Origin: a virus
Length of the DNA stretch: 33,553 bases
Strand: one strand, 5' to 3'
IMG/VR virus record: IMGVR_UViG_3300006999_000006
Span: 1 to 33,553 of that record
The notes below the pieces were generated by a model. That model was not told the DNA's origin, did no database searches, and was given only the letters and a program-made list of their open reading frames with translations. The translations under genes and the position numbers were made by a program. This document shows positions 6,699-20,469 of the stretch, one piece after another. The number at the start of each line of letters is the position of its first letter. Position 1 is the first letter of the stretch.

Positions 6699-6728
6699 TC
6701 CCAAAGCTAATAAGTTTTGGGATTTTTT
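6699..6728 (+). terminator. Rho-independent terminator of the glycan operon
   Basis: A 7-bp stem pairs 6699-6705 with 6716-6722 around a 10-nt loop, followed by six T (6723-6728). It would stop transcripts arriving from the glycan cassette. RNA starting at the promoter just upstream (about 6703) would lack most of the 5' arm and should escape. Confidence 0.7.
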
Positions 6729-6746
6729 AATTTAAAGGGAGGAGTA

Positions 6747-9359
6747 ATGACTTGTAAAGATTGTTATCTAAAAGGAAATACACAAATAAAATTCAGGGGT
6801 AATCAAGAGGCTGAAATTGTAGTGGTTTCGGAAAGCCCTAATAATTATGAACTTGAAGATCAGAAATTACTGACTGGTAAAGCTCAAAAATTAATCCAAA
6901 AAGAATTTAATAGAGTAGGTATTGATAAAGTTTTCGTTGCCAGTGCATTAAGGTGTAACTACGATAAGAACTTATTTACTGACGGCCAAGTTAGTAATTT
7001 ATTGAATTGTTGCCGACACCACATCGAAACTGTTATTAATACAATAAAACCTAAAATTATTTTATGCTTAGGAGCTATTGCGGGGCGACAAGTTCTTGGC
7101 CGAAAAGTAACCTTAAAGAAAGATAGAAATCAAGTTCATTGGTCAGAGGAATTTCAAGCCTATGTAATTATTACATATCATCCTAATTATGTAATAAGTA
7201 ATCCTTCGGCTGTTGCTTTCCTTTCGGCTGATTTCAACCTATTAAAAAATTTTAGAGATAACAATTATTCTGAAAAAAATTTAATAGAATATAAAGAAGT
7301 AGAATCAATTCGTCCTATATTAGATGGTGATTGTTATAAAGAAGGTACTTATTCCTTAGTAGGTATAGATACAGAAACTACTACTGTCCAATGGTACAGC
7401 CCAAATGATATTACTTTATCTTATCAAGTAAGTAAGGATTTAAATGAAGGTTGGACGGTAATTCTTTATGAAGAATGTGAAAAAGATCAAGGCGATTTTA
7501 ACATTAAAGTGGCAAGAAGAGGAACTAAAAAGAAACCCGAATATGATGAAGTAGGTATTGAGGAAGCTCCTAATTTTGATGAGAAAATAGCTGAACTTAA
7601 AGAACTACTGGAACGTCAAGACATAAAAAAATATTTCTTTAATCAAAAATTTGAACAACATAGATTTATGAACCTTGGTATTACCAAGTGGAATAATTGC
7701 TGTATGGATGTTAGAGTTGCTTGCCATACTTTGGATTCTAACTTATTTAAAAACTGTTCCTTAGATGAAGCAGTTTCGCAGTTTGCCCCTGAAATTGGGA
7801 GTCATAAAGGTGATGTATCTGACGTGGAAAAAGCGGACATGCTTGCTCTGCTTAGAGAAGATAGAGAAAAATTTATTAAGTATGCTTCTCTCGACCCAGT
7901 AGCAACTTTAATAGTTGCATTTAAAGTTCGTGATGAATTAATAAAAGACCGAAAATCTTTAAATTATTTTATAAAATTTGCTCAACCTATTGAAAATGAA
8001 TTTCTATTTGAACTAGAAAGAAACGGGGTTTTGGTAGATAGGGAAGCCATCCCCGGACTTAAAGAAAACCTACAAAAAGAATGCGAGGAAAAAGTAAAAG
8101 AATTTAAAAAACTTTGCCCCAAAAAAGTAGTTCTTAGGCATGAAGATAATTTCAACCTTAACAGAAAAATAATAATTCAAGAAGCTCTTTTTGAGTGGAC
8201 TGATACTAAGTTGAATAAGAATCAAACTGTAGCGGAACATCACGATTATGGATTTTGTTTAGAGCCTGTGATAATGAATGATAGGTCGGGAACTCCGGGT
8301 ACTGATAAGAAATCAGTGATGAATTATATTTTGGATGGTAATTACCCTAAGAAAATAAAAAACCTAATAAACACTTATTTGGAATGGGCTGCAAGAGTGC
8401 GGCTTTTAAATACATTTATTGCTAATATAGAAAGGTATTTAACGGAAGAAGACAGACTTCATTCATCTTTTTCAATAACTACTACAAGCACAGGGCGTAC
8501 TTCGTCTATGCACCCTAATCTTCAAAATCAACCAAAAAGAGGAACACTTGCCAAATTAATTAGAAGATTATTTATACCTGAAGATAATTGTGTTCTTATT
8601 GAGAAAGATTTCAAGGCTTCTGAGGTTAGATTCGTAGCTTTACATACTCAAGATAAAAACCTTATCCGTATTCTTAACGAAGGAGCAGATATACACGCTA
8701 TAACCGCTAAATCTTTAAATAACTTACCAGAAGATTATGAATTTAAGTCCGAGGCTGAAAAGAAGAATATGCGTCAACAAGCCAAAGCATGTGTATTCGG
8801 ATTATTATACCTTGCTCAACCATTTACTTTGAAAAAATATGCCTATGAGAACTATGGTATAAAATATACAGATAAAGAAGCAGAACAATTCTGGAATAAG
8901 TTTTTTGATATTTATCCAGGTATTAAAAACTGGCATAATAAAGATATTGAATTTATGAAAAAACATGGTTATCTACGACACATGTTCGGTAGAAAGCGGT
9001 CTTTGCCTAATATTTTTTCCGAGGATAAAAAGAGGTGTAACCAAGAAATGAGAACAGGTATAAACTTTCCTATCCAGTCTGCCAGTTCAGATTATGCTCT
9101 TTTCGGGGGCTATCAAATAATGAAAGACCCTAATATTAACAAAAGCAAATGTAAAATAGTTCTTTTCCTCCATGATGCCCTATATTTCTCTATTGACAAA
9201 GATTATTTAGATGATGTTTTGCCTAAACTAAAATATCACATGGAAAACGCACCCATAGAAGAAAATTTTGGTATAGTCCCTAACATTCCTTTAGAAACGG
9301 AAACTAATTTAAGTGAAACATCTTTGGCCGAAACCAAGGAGATAGAATACATTGTATAG
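6747..9359 (+). CDS. DNA polymerase family A with N-terminal family-4 uracil-DNA glycosylase domain
   Basis: 870 aa from ATG 6747, preceded by AGGGAGGAG; an in-frame ATG at 6717 lies inside the terminator hairpin and has no SD. Residues 1-170 match the family-4 UDG domain seen in SPO1-type phage polymerases: a Cys-x2-Cys start, Cys in Leu-Arg-Cys-Asn, a later Cys-Cys-Arg-His (four Cys for a 4Fe-4S cluster), Ser-Glu-Ser-Pro at motif A and Thr-Tyr-His-Pro at motif B. A 3'-5' exonuclease follows: Asp208-Thr-Glu210, Asn-Gln-Lys-Phe-Glu from 299 (Glu where Asp is usual), Tyr379-x3-Asp383. Polymerase motif A is Asp621-Phe-Lys-Ala-Ser-Glu, motif B starts at Arg676 (Arg-x3-Lys-x3-Phe-Gly) and motif C is His809-Asp810-Ala (Ala instead of Glu). 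This is the replicative polymerase. Glycosylase activity itself is not proven. Confidence 0.93.
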   Translation: MTCKDCYLKGNTQIKFRGNQEAEIVVVSESPNNYELEDQKLLTGKAQKLIQKEFNRVGIDKVFVASALRCNYDKNLFTDGQVSNLLNCCRHHIETVINTIKPKIILCLGAIAGRQVLGRKVTLKKDRNQVHWSEEFQAYVIITYHPNYVISNPSAVAFLSADFNLLKNFRDNNYSEKNLIEYKEVESIRPILDGDCYKEGTYSLVGIDTETTTVQWYSPNDITLSYQVSKDLNEGWTVILYEECEKDQGDFNIKVARRGTKKKPEYDEVGIEEAPNFDEKIAELKELLERQDIKKYFFNQKFEQHRFMNLGITKWNNCCMDVRVACHTLDSNLFKNCSLDEAVSQFAPEIGSHKGDVSDVEKADMLALLREDREKFIKYASLDPVATLIVAFKVRDELIKDRKSLNYFIKFAQPIENEFLFELERNGVLVDREAIPGLKENLQKECEEKVKEFKKLCPKKVVLRHEDNFNLNRKIIIQEALFEWTDTKLNKNQTVAEHHDYGFCLEPVIMNDRSGTPGTDKKSVMNYILDGNYPKKIKNLINTYLEWAARVRLLNTFIANIERYLTEEDRLHSSFSITTTSTGRTSSMHPNLQNQPKRGTLAKLIRRLFIPEDNCVLIEKDFKASEVRFVALHTQDKNLIRILNEGADIHAITAKSLNNLPEDYEFKSEAEKKNMRQQAKACVFGLLYLAQPFTLKKYAYENYGIKYTDKEAEQFWNKFFDIYPGIKNWHNKDIEFMKKHGYLRHMFGRKRSLPNIFSEDKKRCNQEMRTGINFPIQSASSDYALFGGYQIMKDPNINKSKCKIVLFLHDALYFSIDKDYLDDVLPKLKYHMENAPIEENFGIVPNIPLETETNLSETSLAETKEIEYIV

Positions 9360-9434: not shown

Positions 9435-11087
9435 ATGTCGGAAGAAACAAAAGATGATTTAAGAAGTAAAGTACGAACTATCTCTAAGCAGAGAAAAGAG
9501 GATAGTTTTGGAAGTAGGCAGAATGAACCAGAAGAATTTTTAAGTGAAAAAAGACTAAAGGAATTTAGATTACTTGTACCTCCCCTTGCCCCTACTACCT
9601 TATACAGCGTGGTCGAAAATAGTTCTACATTAGCAAGCTGTATTGAAGCCTATATAGACAATATAGATGGTTTTGGGTATGAGTTCTTTTACACTGGAAC
9701 CAAGGATAAAGAAAAAAATGAAGAAGTAATAAAAGAAAAAGAAGAACTTTCAGACTTTTTCAAGCAAGCAAATGAAAGTCAGTCTTTTATTGAATTAAGG
9801 AAAGATCTTCGCAGAGATTATGAAACTACAGGTAATGCTTATATAGAAGTAATTCGTTATCTGGACAATGAAATTGCTACCCTTTATAGAGCGGACTCAA
9901 AGTATATGAGGTTACAGGCAAAGCAGGAAGAACCTGTTGAAGTTAAAGTACCTTTGATTCGTAATGGTAAAGTACGGCAAACCCCGATCAAGAAAAAGTT
10001 CCGTAAATTCGCCATGATTACCAATGGTGGAAAATATGAAATTAGGTGGTTTAAAGAATATGGTGATCCTCGTAATATGTGTGCCATAACCGGGGAGTAC
10101 GAAGAAGATTTAAAGAAAACTAATCGTGAAGTGAAAGAGTTTGCTTCTGAAATCCTTCATTTCAAACAAGGTAACGGTATTTACGGCGTTCCAAGATGGG
10201 CCGGAGTTATCCCTGTTGTAAGGGGTCTTTACGAAGCTGATTTTGTAAACTACGATCTATTTGAGAATCAAGCAGTCCCTCCAATGGCTATTCTGGTATC
10301 AGGAGGTCAGCTTACTAAACAATCTTGGGAAGATGTAGTTGAAATGCTTGAAGGACTTAAAGGTTCTGATAATTTTCATAAAGCCCTTGTTTTGGAAACA
10401 GAAGGAGCAACCGGAGATAGCGTAGATGATAAACCTACCAGGGCTTCTGTTGACTTTAAACCTTTGAACCAAAGAGACGATTTACTTTTCGGTAATTATA
10501 TAGACAGTTCTGAAAAAAGAATAAGGGCTAAATTTAGACTTCCTGCTTTTTACTTAGGTATAACTAATGAAATGTCTCGTGCTACAGCCGACTCATCTAA
10601 AATGATTGCGGAAGAACAGGTATTCAGGCCAGAAAGAGATTCTTTCGATGAGATAATTAATTTCACTTTAATGAGAGAATTAAATGCTGTCCACTGGAAG
10701 TTTAAGACCGTCGGCCCTCGCTTAGTAGAAGGGGAGACAGTTATAGATGCTGTAGGTAAATTTGCAAGGGCGGGAGCATTAAGCACTAATGATGCTATTA
10801 ATCTAATGAATAGAGTGCTGGATTTGGATGTTACTACCTACGACTCAGAGTGGTCGGAAATCCCTGTTGCTACTCTAATTGAGCTTATAAAGAAAAAAAG
10901 TGTAACAAGTATTGAAGGAGTAGGAATAACAGGAGGCGATGTATCTTCTGAAGAAGATAACGATGACGACCAAGAAGAAAAATCTGTAGATTCAAAGCAA
11001 TCAGATATGAATGCTTTAAGCGATTCAGTGGATGAACTTAAAGAGCAACTTGAAGAAATGAGAGTAATTTTAGAAGATAGGTATTAA
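9435..11087 (+). CDS. Phage portal protein (PBSX/HK97-like)
   Basis: 550 aa, AGGAG SD with a 6-nt gap. Portal features: an N-terminal helix-rich arm, Leu-Ala-Ser-Cys-Ile-Glu-Ala-Tyr near 70-77, an Asp-Tyr-Glu-Thr-Thr-Gly-Asn-Ala-Tyr-Ile-Glu motif near 128-138, and Phe-Lys-Gln-Gly-Asn-Gly-Ile-Tyr-Gly-Val-Pro-Arg-Trp near 243-255, which matches the PBSX-type portal family. A long clip/stem region and an acidic, Ser/Asp/Glu-rich C-terminus follow. It forms the dodecameric ring at the capsid vertex for DNA entry. It is the only clear virion structural gene in the window, sitting between polymerase and initiator genes with its own promoter, so it is expressed separately from the replication genes. 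Confidence 0.85.
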   Translation: MSEETKDDLRSKVRTISKQRKEDSFGSRQNEPEEFLSEKRLKEFRLLVPPLAPTTLYSVVENSSTLASCIEAYIDNIDGFGYEFFYTGTKDKEKNEEVIKEKEELSDFFKQANESQSFIELRKDLRRDYETTGNAYIEVIRYLDNEIATLYRADSKYMRLQAKQEEPVEVKVPLIRNGKVRQTPIKKKFRKFAMITNGGKYEIRWFKEYGDPRNMCAITGEYEEDLKKTNREVKEFASEILHFKQGNGIYGVPRWAGVIPVVRGLYEADFVNYDLFENQAVPPMAILVSGGQLTKQSWEDVVEMLEGLKGSDNFHKALVLETEGATGDSVDDKPTRASVDFKPLNQRDDLLFGNYIDSSEKRIRAKFRLPAFYLGITNEMSRATADSSKMIAEEQVFRPERDSFDEIINFTLMRELNAVHWKFKTVGPRLVEGETVIDAVGKFARAGALSTNDAINLMNRVLDLDVTTYDSEWSEIPVATLIELIKKKSVTSIEGVGITGGDVSSEEDNDDDQEEKSVDSKQSDMNALSDSVDELKEQLEEMRVILEDRY

Positions 11088-11092
11088 AGAAT

Positions 11093-11122
11093 AAAAAAAG
11101 CCCCTGCTCAAAAGGCAGGGGC
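11093..11122 (-). terminator. Minus-strand rho-independent terminator 3
   Basis: An 8-bp GC-rich stem (11122-11115 with 11107-11100), 7-nt loop, then seven T on the minus strand (11099-11093). On the + strand the same hairpin is preceded by A and has no T run, so it points left only. Confidence 0.75.
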
Positions 11123-11154
11123 ATCTCCTTCGGCCCTTAAATTGGCCGATGAGT

Positions 11155-11198
11155 AAAAAGACCATCTAAAGTGTGCAGGGATATTAAGCATAGATGGT
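11155..11198 (-). terminator. Minus-strand rho-independent terminator 2
   Basis: ACCATCTA/TAGATGGT 8-bp stem (11198-11191 with 11168-11161), with an inner TGC/GCA pair in the loop, followed on the minus strand by C and five T (11160-11155). Confidence 0.6.
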
Positions 11199-11205
11199 TT
11201 GTGAT

Positions 11206-11252
11206 AAAAAAGCCGTCAACAAGAAAAAGGAAGGGGAAACTCATTGACGGCT
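11206..11252 (-). terminator. Minus-strand rho-independent terminator 1
   Basis: A 9-bp stem AGCCGTCAA/TTGACGGCT (11252-11244 with 11219-11211), 24-nt pyrimidine-rich loop, followed by a run of six T on the minus strand (11211-11206). Confidence 0.65.
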
Positions 11253-11303
11253 AACCTCAATCGAGGTTTCTTAGGAAGGGGTACTTTTATGAACACCAAT
11301 TAA

Positions 11304-11332
11304 AATATAAACACCCCTTCCCTTATTGTCAA
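11304..11332 (-). promoter_or_regulatory. Minus-strand promoter of the candidate small RNA
   Basis: Read on the minus strand: TTGACA (11332-11327), exactly 17-nt spacer, TATATT (11309-11304). This is the only strong minus-strand promoter I found. A GGAAGGGGT block in its spacer (11321-11313) is an inverted repeat of ACCCCTTCC at 11282-11274 in the RNA. Confidence 0.65.
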
Positions 11333-11350
11333 TAGTTATCAAAAAATAAA

Positions 11351-11378
11351 TTGCATAATTATGTTTTTCTGTTATAAT
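11351..11378 (+). promoter_or_regulatory. Promoter for the replication initiator gene
   Basis: TTGCAT (11351-11356), 16-nt spacer, TATAAT (11373-11378) with extended TG. The palindrome CATAATTATG (11354-11363) overlaps the -35 and spacer, and a TGNACTTNAAGTNCA site follows at 11391. Confidence 0.6.
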
Positions 11379-11390
11379 GTATAAAAATAA

Positions 11391-11405
11391 TGAACTTTAA
11401 GTACA
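11391..11405. repeat. TGNACTTNAAGTNCA palindrome, copy 2
   Basis: TGAACTTTAAGTACA, 12 nt downstream of the -10 of the initiator promoter and so in its 5' leader. Likely an operator or leader element. Confidence 0.65.
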
Positions 11406-11421
11406 AAATAGGAGACCACCA

Positions 11422-12540
11422 ATGAATACAGGAAATAAAGTAGTAGACGAAATATCACAAATTAATTTTAAAGGAAATATAATACCTAACACATGGTATA
11501 GCCATATAAAGAAAAGAACATCTAAAGGTGATTTTAAAACAGATCTCTTGGCCGTAACTATACTATCTGAAATTATTTATTGGTATAGAGCCGTAGAGGA
11601 AAGAGATGAGAACACTGGAAAAACAATTAAATATAATAAAAAATTTAACCATGATAAATACCAAAAATGGTATGCTTCTTGGGCTGATATGTTTGGAGTA
11701 TCTAAAAAACAATTAAGAGATTCTATAAATAACCTAATAAAATTAAATCTAATTAGTAGAGAGATAAGAACTATAAAGACAAATCAAGGTGGCATTTTAA
11801 CAGGAGTTACATTCTTTGAACCTATACCTGAAACTATAAAATATATAAATAATGTAGTCTCAGAAAAACACGAGCCTCTTTACAAAAATAAAATACCCCC
11901 TTTACAAAATTGTCAGGGGGGTTTTTCAAAATTGGTAGGGGGGTTTTTCAAAATTGGCAACCCTACGGAGATTCCTTACGAGACTCCTTTTAAGAATCCT
12001 TTCTACTGTACTGTGCATAATTTTTCTACCGAAAAATCTATGACAGATGGTAGTGTACCGTATAGTAGAAAAGATAATTTTATAGGGTCAACACATAATG
12101 AATTAAAAAATTCAAGTTTCGCCACCCTCGAAGCCAAGATTAAAGAAAATATCTTCTCTGATACCTTAATTAGTGATGCCCAAAAAGTAAAAAAATATAC
12201 AAGTGCTGGTACAGACGTATTTTATAGGAGGCGGCATCGGTCGAATGTTAAATTTGAGAAAGGAGAAATCCCAGCCGCCCTTTCTATTATAGAGGAAGGT
12301 CAATTACCGGAAGTAGTTAGAAACTATATTAACCATGAAATGTCTATGTTTGATACTGGCGGTACTAAAAATTTTGGTACGTTGCCCGGTCAATTTCTTA
12401 TAGAGGCAGCTTATCAAAGCCCGTGTTTTGTGCATTATTGTAAAATGTCTGAGGAGCAAAAGAAACATGAACTTAAAGTGCAAGATAACGAGGAGGCGGG
12501 TAGTGATAAATCTTTGTTAGAGTTATGGAGAGAAAGTTAG
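11422..12540 (+). CDS. Winged-helix replication initiator-like protein
   Basis: 372 aa, SD in ATAGGAGACC. The N-terminal domain has the pattern of phage/plasmid initiators: Leu-Leu-Ala-Val-Thr-Ile-Leu-Ser-Glu-Ile-Ile-Tyr-Trp-Tyr at about 43-56, then a Trp-Ala-Asp-Met-Phe-Gly-Val-Ser-Lys-Lys-Gln-Leu-Arg helix-turn-helix at about 91-103 with a wing after it. The middle (about 160-195) is low in structure and encoded by 22-bp repeats. The C-terminal part is less clear. Such proteins bind iterons in or near their own gene and load the replication machinery. Inferred role: initiation of phage DNA replication at the embedded repeats. It begins an operon with its own promoter. Confidence 0.7.
   Translation: MNTGNKVVDEISQINFKGNIIPNTWYSHIKKRTSKGDFKTDLLAVTILSEIIYWYRAVEERDENTGKTIKYNKKFNHDKYQKWYASWADMFGVSKKQLRDSINNLIKLNLISREIRTIKTNQGGILTGVTFFEPIPETIKYINNVVSEKHEPLYKNKIPPLQNCQGGFSKLVGGFFKIGNPTEIPYETPFKNPFYCTVHNFSTEKSMTDGSVPYSRKDNFIGSTHNELKNSSFATLEAKIKENIFSDTLISDAQKVKKYTSAGTDVFYRRRHRSNVKFEKGEIPAALSIIEEGQLPEVVRNYINHEMSMFDTGGTKNFGTLPGQFLIEAAYQSPCFVHYCKMSEEQKKHELKVQDNEEAGSDKSLLELWRES
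11883..11957 (+). repeat. 22-bp iterons inside the initiator gene, candidate replication origin
   Basis: CAAAATTG occurs at 11905, 11927 and 11949, exactly 22 bp apart, with a weaker copy (CAAAAATA) at 11883 in the same phase. The last two full copies sit in an exact 21-base repeat with six G followed by five T (11915-11935 and 11937-11957). A run of five C (11896-11900) faces the G runs. The 22-bp period is not a multiple of three, so this is not a protein repeat; it is what an initiator-binding array looks like. Confidence 0.65.
12468..12482. repeat. TGNACTTNAAGTNCA palindrome, copy 3
   Basis: TGAACTTAAAGTGCA within the 3' end of the initiator gene, about 200 nt upstream of the next promoter. 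No promoter adjoins it. Confidence 0.55.
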
Positions 12541-12672
12541 GTAACATAGGTAGAATTTATATCTTATATAGTAAGTGTCAGCCTAATATCGGCCTCAGTT
12601 TTAATGATGTTATGGTAATTAGGGTGATAGGTTGCTTTCTTTTTTGAAATTAAAAATAAGCCTTATTTTTGT

Positions 12673-12700
12673 TTGACAAACATATTGGATATGTTATAAT
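12673..12700 (+). promoter_or_regulatory. Promoter for the small-gene operon
   Basis: TTGACA (12673-12678), 16-nt spacer, TATAAT (12695-12700) with extended TG. The spacer holds the dyad ACATAT-TGG-ATATGT, and a TGNACTTNAAGTNCA site overlaps the end of the -10. The rest of the gap 12541-12672 shows only an AT-rich hairpin (about 12652-12670) that is too weak to call a terminator. Confidence 0.75.
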
Positions 12701-19997: not shown

Positions 19998-20469
19998 ATG
20001 TTATTGCGGACAGCTTTTTAAAATGTCCCACAAAGTCAATAAACAATTATTGTCTGATTTTGAACTATTTTGTAGTCCTGAATGTGTTTTGGATTATGTA
20101 AATAACTTCCAACCAACAGGAAAAAGCGTAAGAAAGTATCCACCGCAAGTAGATAATGTTTTTGAATGTTGGGATTCAGTTACAGAAAAGGGATATAGGT
20201 CATTGTATGAAGTATATTTTGCAAGGTTTCTCTTTATAAATGGTATAGAATTTGAGTATGAACCTTGTGCTTTTAAGTTGGGAACTAAAACTTATACCCC
20301 TGACTTCTATATTCCTTCTAAAGATTTATATGTAGAGTGCAAAGGACGATGGGGTTCGGGGTCTAAAGACAAAATAAGGAAAATTTCAGAAGAAATAAAT
20401 ATTATCCTGTTACCGGGATATTTACAAAAAGAGTTTCAAAAATATTGGAAAAAGGGGGGTAAGAAATGA
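19987..20469 (+). CDS. PD-(D/E)XK endonuclease with N-terminal zinc site
   Basis: 160 aa. The zinc-like part has Cys5-x-Cys7 and Cys29-x3-Cys33. The nuclease core is Arg-Ser-Leu-Tyr-Glu75, then Tyr-Thr-Pro-Asp106-Phe-Tyr-Ile-Pro and Val-Glu117-Cys-Lys119-Gly, the classical order of a PD-(D/E)XK enzyme. Similar small nucleases act as T7 endonuclease I-like resolvases, Vsr-like or TnsA-like nicking enzymes. Between UvsX and a Cas4/RecB-like exonuclease it most likely processes recombination or replication branches. Confidence 0.8.
   Translation: MNLRCYCGQLFKMSHKVNKQLLSDFELFCSPECVLDYVNNFQPTGKSVRKYPPQVDNVFECWDSVTEKGYRSLYEVYFARFLFINGIEFEYEPCAFKLGTKTYTPDFYIPSKDLYVECKGRWGSGSKDKIRKISEEINIILLPGYLQKEFQKYWKKGGKK

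Follow-up and report, generated by a model that had tools for sequence, protein, structure and literature searches.

A predicted minus-strand small RNA gene with tandem terminators between the portal and replication initiation genes of an unclassified phage

The OOP RNA of phage lambda brings about RNase III-dependent decay of its target and is under LexA control. Some trans-acting small RNAs block Shine-Dalgarno sequences through C/U-rich loops, and the phi29-type packaging RNA is a structured phage RNA similar in size to the RNA described here. To our knowledge, annotation is largely lacking for the small RNAs that virulent or uncultivated phages encode. OOP is transcribed leftward from pO, adjoining gene O, and ends at an intrinsic terminator; it overlaps the 3′ coding end of cII by 52 bases, and the cII transcript is cleaved 12 nt outside the coding sequence (PMC5869508). 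OOP is not a replication primer (PMC12197685). Other phage antisense RNAs, such as aQ and Sar, limit the expression of the opposite gene and pair directly with regulatory or antirepressor genes (PMC12197685).

We analyzed the 33,553-base virus record IMGVR_UViG_3300006999_000006 over its whole length (the window). It comes from an AT-rich unclassified phage with its main genes on the plus strand, and is probably a fragment of that phage. A sequence-only reading had pointed to a gene-free stretch of 334 nt carrying a minus-strand small RNA. The stretch was found at 11088-11421, between the end of the portal ORF (11087) and the start of the initiator ORF (11422). This gap is the probable boundary between an operon that ends with the portal gene and a replication operon that opens with the initiator gene (Table 1). 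The joint layout of polymerase and N-terminal uracil-DNA-glycosylase seen upstream is also common to the aligned relatives.

Table 1. Features of the window and counterpart elements in relatives (window coordinates)
Feature	Position	Strand	Remarks
Glycosyltransferases and tail assembly chaperone		+	
Family A DNA polymerase	6717-9359	+	N-terminal uracil-DNA-glycosylase domain
Portal protein gene	9435..11087	+	phrog_12, E 2.5e-42; PF04860
Terminator 3, strongest	11093..11122	-	GCCCCUGC-CUUUUGA-GCAGGGGC, then T7; stem 11122-11100+TTTTTTT
Predicted small RNA, longest form	11093..11297	-	205 nt; promoter, T-tract hairpins, fold z -5.9
Hairpin	11130..11149	-	UCGGCC-AAUUUAAG-GGCCGA; from fold
Terminator 2, weakest	11155..11198	-	8-bp stem (3 G-C), 22-nt loop, CTTTTT; stem 11198-11161+CTTTTT
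Hairpin A / terminator 1	11205..11252	-	13-bp stem, 16-nt pyrimidine loop, then T6; stem 11252-11211+TTTTTT
Loop motif UUCCUUUUU	11224..11232	-	complement of AAAAAGGAA (ribosome-binding-site-like)
Hairpin	11253..11269	-	AACCUC-GAUU-GAGGUU; from fold
Predicted RNA start	11297	-	set 7 nt after the -10 element
-10 element TATATT	11309-11304	-	17-nt spacer
-35 element TTGACA	11332-11327	-	
Probable initiator-gene promoter	11351-11378	+	TTGCAT-16-TATAAT; region 11351..11405; read from sequence
Palindrome TGAACTTTAAGTACA	11391-11405		downstream of the initiator-gene promoter
Replication initiation protein gene	11422..12540	+	divergent from the small RNA; phrog_270, E 9.6e-9
Primase, helicase, UvsX-like recombinase, ribonucleotide reductase, dUTPase, thymidylate synthase, two tRNAs			after the initiator gene
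TGNACTTNAAGTNCA palindrome sites	667, 5551, 6848, 11033, 11391, 12468, 12700, 13692, 16874, 22516, 27296, 32329		
L003 element		-	12/12 promoter; predicted RNA 82 nt; fold z -5.1
L049/L050 element		-	11/12 promoter; predicted RNA 124 nt; fold z -4.2
L015 element		-	11/12 promoter; predicted RNA 72 nt; fold z -4.2

The promoter that the sequence-only reading had called near-consensus, with a 17-nt spacer, was recovered on the minus strand, and TTGACA-17-TATATT matches the consensus at 11 of 12 positions. The three stems, each said to end in five to seven T, were likewise present. The RNA forms of about 92, 143 and 205 nt proposed earlier are predicted here as 93, 143 and 205 nt, from ends at 11205, 11155 and 11093. 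Six hairpins had been counted; five appear in the minimum-energy fold, and the sixth is only short and lies at the 5′ end of the RNA. The predicted 3′ end of the longest form (11093) falls 5 nt short of the portal stop (11087), with zero coding overlap. No minus-strand gene was found downstream of the terminators, where the largest minus-strand ORF (78 aa) lies inside the portal gene. Thus, the terminators do not belong to an attenuator or a riboswitch.

This arrangement is not random. When the 33.5 kb were scanned, five promoters with a match of at least 11/12 were found, only two of them on the minus strand, and the small RNA promoter was the sole one followed by terminators (three). Among 200 dinucleotide-shuffled windows, none contained a promoter of at least 11/12 followed by two or more terminators, and five contained one followed by a single terminator. 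The 205-nt RNA folds at -71 kcal/mol against -45.6 ± 4.3 kcal/mol for shuffled sequences (z -5.9), and 0 of 200 shuffles folded as well. The plus strand of the gap folds equally well (z -6.0). Since the palindromic stretch folds well on both strands, the strand assignment rests on the promoter and the T-tracts. The scan for terminator-like sites on the plus strand of the gap, between the portal and initiator genes, predicted none.

Two further observations concern signals in the window. The second minus-strand promoter (12/12) lies at 1157-1129 and has no terminator within 270 nt. In addition, the 15-bp palindrome TGNACTTNAAGTNCA occurs at 12 dispersed sites when one mismatch is allowed, where 0.11 would be expected. 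The sites at 12700 and 13692 adjoin the -10 elements of two 12/12 promoters, that at 11391 lies just after the initiator-gene promoter, and the others are mostly intragenic. These palindromes look like a phage-wide operator or stoperator system. The palindrome was not found in L003, one of the relatives described below.

Counterparts were sought beside the portal genes of related phages. The portal search gave 46 loci, and in four of these the match covered most of the protein at 42-52% identity; L049 and L050 were added by profile search and L058 by a search of bacterial genome contigs. Three independent lineages carry a counterpart, and their portals are about 45-52% identical to that of the window (L003, 52%; L049/L050, 49%; L015, 49%). 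Its place and strand are conserved in all three: a minus-strand promoter, TTGACA-17-TATAAT, TATTAT or TATAAG, lies directly 3′ of the portal gene, and a DNA polymerase gene lies upstream of the portal. L049 and L050 are identical to each other across the element. In L015, the gene after the element encodes a DnaD-like replication protein. In L003, the element is followed by a 93-aa ORF and a nucleotidyltransferase gene, with a weakly supported regulator- or replication-like ORF beyond. In L003 and L049, a gene other than the initiator gene comes next.

Among 48 portal loci scanned, a minus-strand promoter of at least 11/12 within 450 nt after the portal occurred only in L003, L049 and L015, and most of the other loci have no gap after the portal. 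Because the other scanned loci lack such a promoter, the element is not a general by-product of portal 3′ ends. The sequence-only reading had named loss from close relatives as evidence against the RNA. The nearest relative found has a portal identity of 52%, and the element is kept in three of the five nearest lineages. It is missing in L004 and L058 (portal identity about 50%), which have no gap, the portal abutting or overlapping the next gene; the element is therefore dispensable or located elsewhere in these phages. Searches for close relatives with the initiator protein or with the DNA polymerase as a single-sequence query returned none. In the annotated phage collection, the DNA search gave no match to the window, and the portal or polymerase protein search gave distant matches only, at most about 35%.

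Place, strand, promoter and terminator are kept across the lineages, whereas sequence and length (72 to 205 nt) are not. Multiple alignment of the RNAs gave no convincing similarity over their whole length, and we make no claim of covariation because the sequences are too diverged to align. Rfam searches at gathering and permissive thresholds matched nothing for the small RNA in the window or the relatives, and the only matches in the window were the two tRNAs. The sequence-only reading had likewise named no family with this plan.

Two structures in the relatives are recorded here separately. A TTGACA-type plus-strand promoter, a long branched hairpin and a T-rich tract follow the portal in a sister lineage (L005:7990-8155 and L059:1220-1400, both plus strand; z -5.7). 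This structure is kept between the two close relatives and has no Rfam match. It was rejected as a counterpart, being on the opposite strand and coming from two near-identical phages (portal 93%). L049 also contains a 472-aa ORF (11200-12618) with RuvC-like FRIGIDPGTDHVGIS and HNH matches, suggestive of a phage-borne IscB-type nuclease.

The plan of three tandem terminators holds in the window but does not extend to the relatives, as L003, L049/L050 and L015 have one intrinsic terminator each. A 21-nt repeat (11110-11130 and 11225-11245, 81% identity) is common to terminator 3 and hairpin A. On account of this repeat, the longer forms may have grown out of an ancestral unit of about 90 nt that was duplicated locally. 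To judge from the sequences, that unit may correspond to the size found in the relatives, with the triple form a local elaboration. As for the minus-strand RNA as a whole, the gene is well supported by its promoter, its terminators and the counterparts that three relatives carry in the same position and orientation, and its expression is a prediction. We consider it very likely that the window contains a real minus-strand RNA gene.

As for its function, we favor, tentatively, a role in cis, in which the RNA would quite possibly act as an antisense or convergent transcript against the portal read-through mRNA. This layout is the closest to that of lambda OOP, and the RNA is complementary to read-through transcripts; for these reasons, cis-antisense or convergent control is preferred. 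The host RNA polymerase would start at about 11297 and stop at one of the three intrinsic terminators. The product would be complementary to the 3′ untranslated or read-through part of the portal transcript, and pairing or polymerase collision would mark this transcript for cleavage or halt its run into the initiator gene, in the way that OOP acts on cII mRNA a short distance downstream of the coding sequence. Since no plus-strand terminator was found in the gap, transcription is expected to read through and to yield mRNA with the complementary sequence. Because the RNA is encoded on the opposite strand with its 3′ end 5 nt past the portal stop, every read-through portal transcript holds its perfect complement. 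Free drift of sequence with promoter, terminator and place kept also suits a cis-antisense RNA, for which complementarity is automatic. Against this reading, coding overlap is absent, unlike in OOP (52 bases). In L049, there is overlap between a plus-strand intrinsic terminator (AAAGCTGTCAAGTGTTTTTGACAGCTTTTTTT, 7745-7790) and the -35 box of the RNA's minus-strand promoter. Read-through is already stopped in L049 by this terminator, which lies after the RNA gene, so that preventing read-through cannot be the sole role there.

The loop motif UUCCUUUUU, present in three of the four RNAs, also counts against action in cis and suggests action in trans. It occurs in the large hairpin A loop, in the hairpin of L003 and in one L049 loop, and a second L049 loop carries AUCCUUUUUU. 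Its complement AAAAAGGAA resembles many start regions of these phages. A trans-acting translational repressor is possible but rather unlikely. Its loops would expose UUCCUUUUU(C) for pairing with the purine-rich sites (AAAAAGGAG/A) at which ribosomes bind phage or host mRNAs, and would thereby block ribosomes. We compared 12-mers at starts with those at internal ATGs, the starts being chosen without regard to Shine-Dalgarno fit. The 12-mers that most prefer phage start regions are those of the large loop of the window RNA (CCUUCCUUUUUC) and of the L003 and L049 loops. Of the duplexes predicted in the window, the most stable (-20.1 kcal/mol) forms with the start region of a 96-aa ORF at 20466. 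Any non-poly-U 9-mer common to three RNAs arose in 33 of 2000 shuffle sets, a figure to be read with the motif having been chosen after looking. However, any C/U-rich loop matches start regions, and shuffled RNAs equaled or exceeded the preference in 2/150 cases for the window (0.013), 19/300 for L049 (0.06), 55/300 for L003 (0.18) and 193/300 for L015 (0.64). The preference is thus suggestive in one or two RNAs and absent in L015, and serves as a lead only. A pattern scan for the loop motif returned 49 contigs; the L003 contig is the sole known relative among them, and the rest are expected to be mostly chance. A broader version, which we regard as improbable, is a lineage-wide RNA whose sequence has been rebuilt repeatedly while its place was kept; its loops would be a general anti-ribosome-binding-site reagent tuning the translation of many phage or host mRNAs, and the tandem terminators would set the number of hairpins per molecule.

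Equally improbable is replication-linked transcription, in which the divergent promoter beside the initiator gene would act in origin opening or in the priming of DNA synthesis, leaving the RNA as a by-product. The minus-strand promoter does point away from the initiator gene, the gap has GGAAGGGG-type repeats, and in lambda pO, next to ori, retains a part in the control of replication (PMC12197685). However, no iteron array or GC-skew switch was found at the gap, where the skew is positive throughout, and the element is not adjacent to the initiator gene in L003 and L049. Moreover, primer RNAs need no tandem intrinsic terminators, and OOP is reported to be non-priming (PMC12197685).

Slightly less probable again, the promoter-like site and the terminators would merely insulate the neighboring operons and yield little or no stable RNA. 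The RNAs cannot be aligned between lineages and the element is missing in L004 and L058, as insulation would allow. However, the T-tracts serve minus-strand transcription only, for which there is no other source, and three other lineages likewise combine promoter and terminator. It is highly improbable that the RNA encodes a small hydrophobic peptide of the kind known from type I toxin modules (MSFPFLFLVDGFFITNHLCLISLHTLDGLFTHRPI, 35 aa in the window). ATG AGT TT. is found again in L003 together with an FLFL stretch (MSLFLFLIFSRQGFF), but no frame with a stop codon is common to the relatives, the L003 frame reaches the terminator without meeting a stop codon, the L015 RNA lacks any frame of at least 8 codons, and the window frame spans two terminators, its FLFL run following from the pyrimidine loop.

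Cis-antisense or convergent control is therefore the reading that we carry into the comparison with known systems. As in the lambdoid pO-oop-tO arrangement, a short RNA runs opposite to the flanking operons, diverges from an initiator gene and ends at an intrinsic terminator, where the upstream gene also has its 3′ end. Unlike in OOP, the upstream gene is that of the portal and not cII, coding overlap is zero, and there are up to three tandem terminators. The window RNA fails membership of the OOP group on overlap and target gene, and we claim no sequence similarity to OOP. With aQ, Sar and other phage antisense RNAs (PMC12197685), it shares being phage-encoded and opposite to a phage gene, but it is located beyond the point where a structural gene stops. 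Like small RNAs that block Shine-Dalgarno sequences, it is predicted to have large single-stranded pyrimidine loops complementary to start regions; compared with them, it shows a weak statistical preference only. It resembles the phi29-type packaging RNA in size and adjoins the portal gene, but it has no Rfam match at the gathering threshold, and its lengths (72 to 205 nt) and sequences vary between relatives. A phage small RNA in antisense orientation is a known kind; what is new here is a member with an unusual tandem-terminator form. Recognition of a non-coding gene by place, strand, promoter and terminator offers a route where covariation and Rfam searches fail. The window RNA is probably a real regulatory phage RNA comparable to lambda OOP RNA, and its locus is a specific candidate, outside the lambdoid phages, for a control point of the OOP type lying between structural and replication genes.
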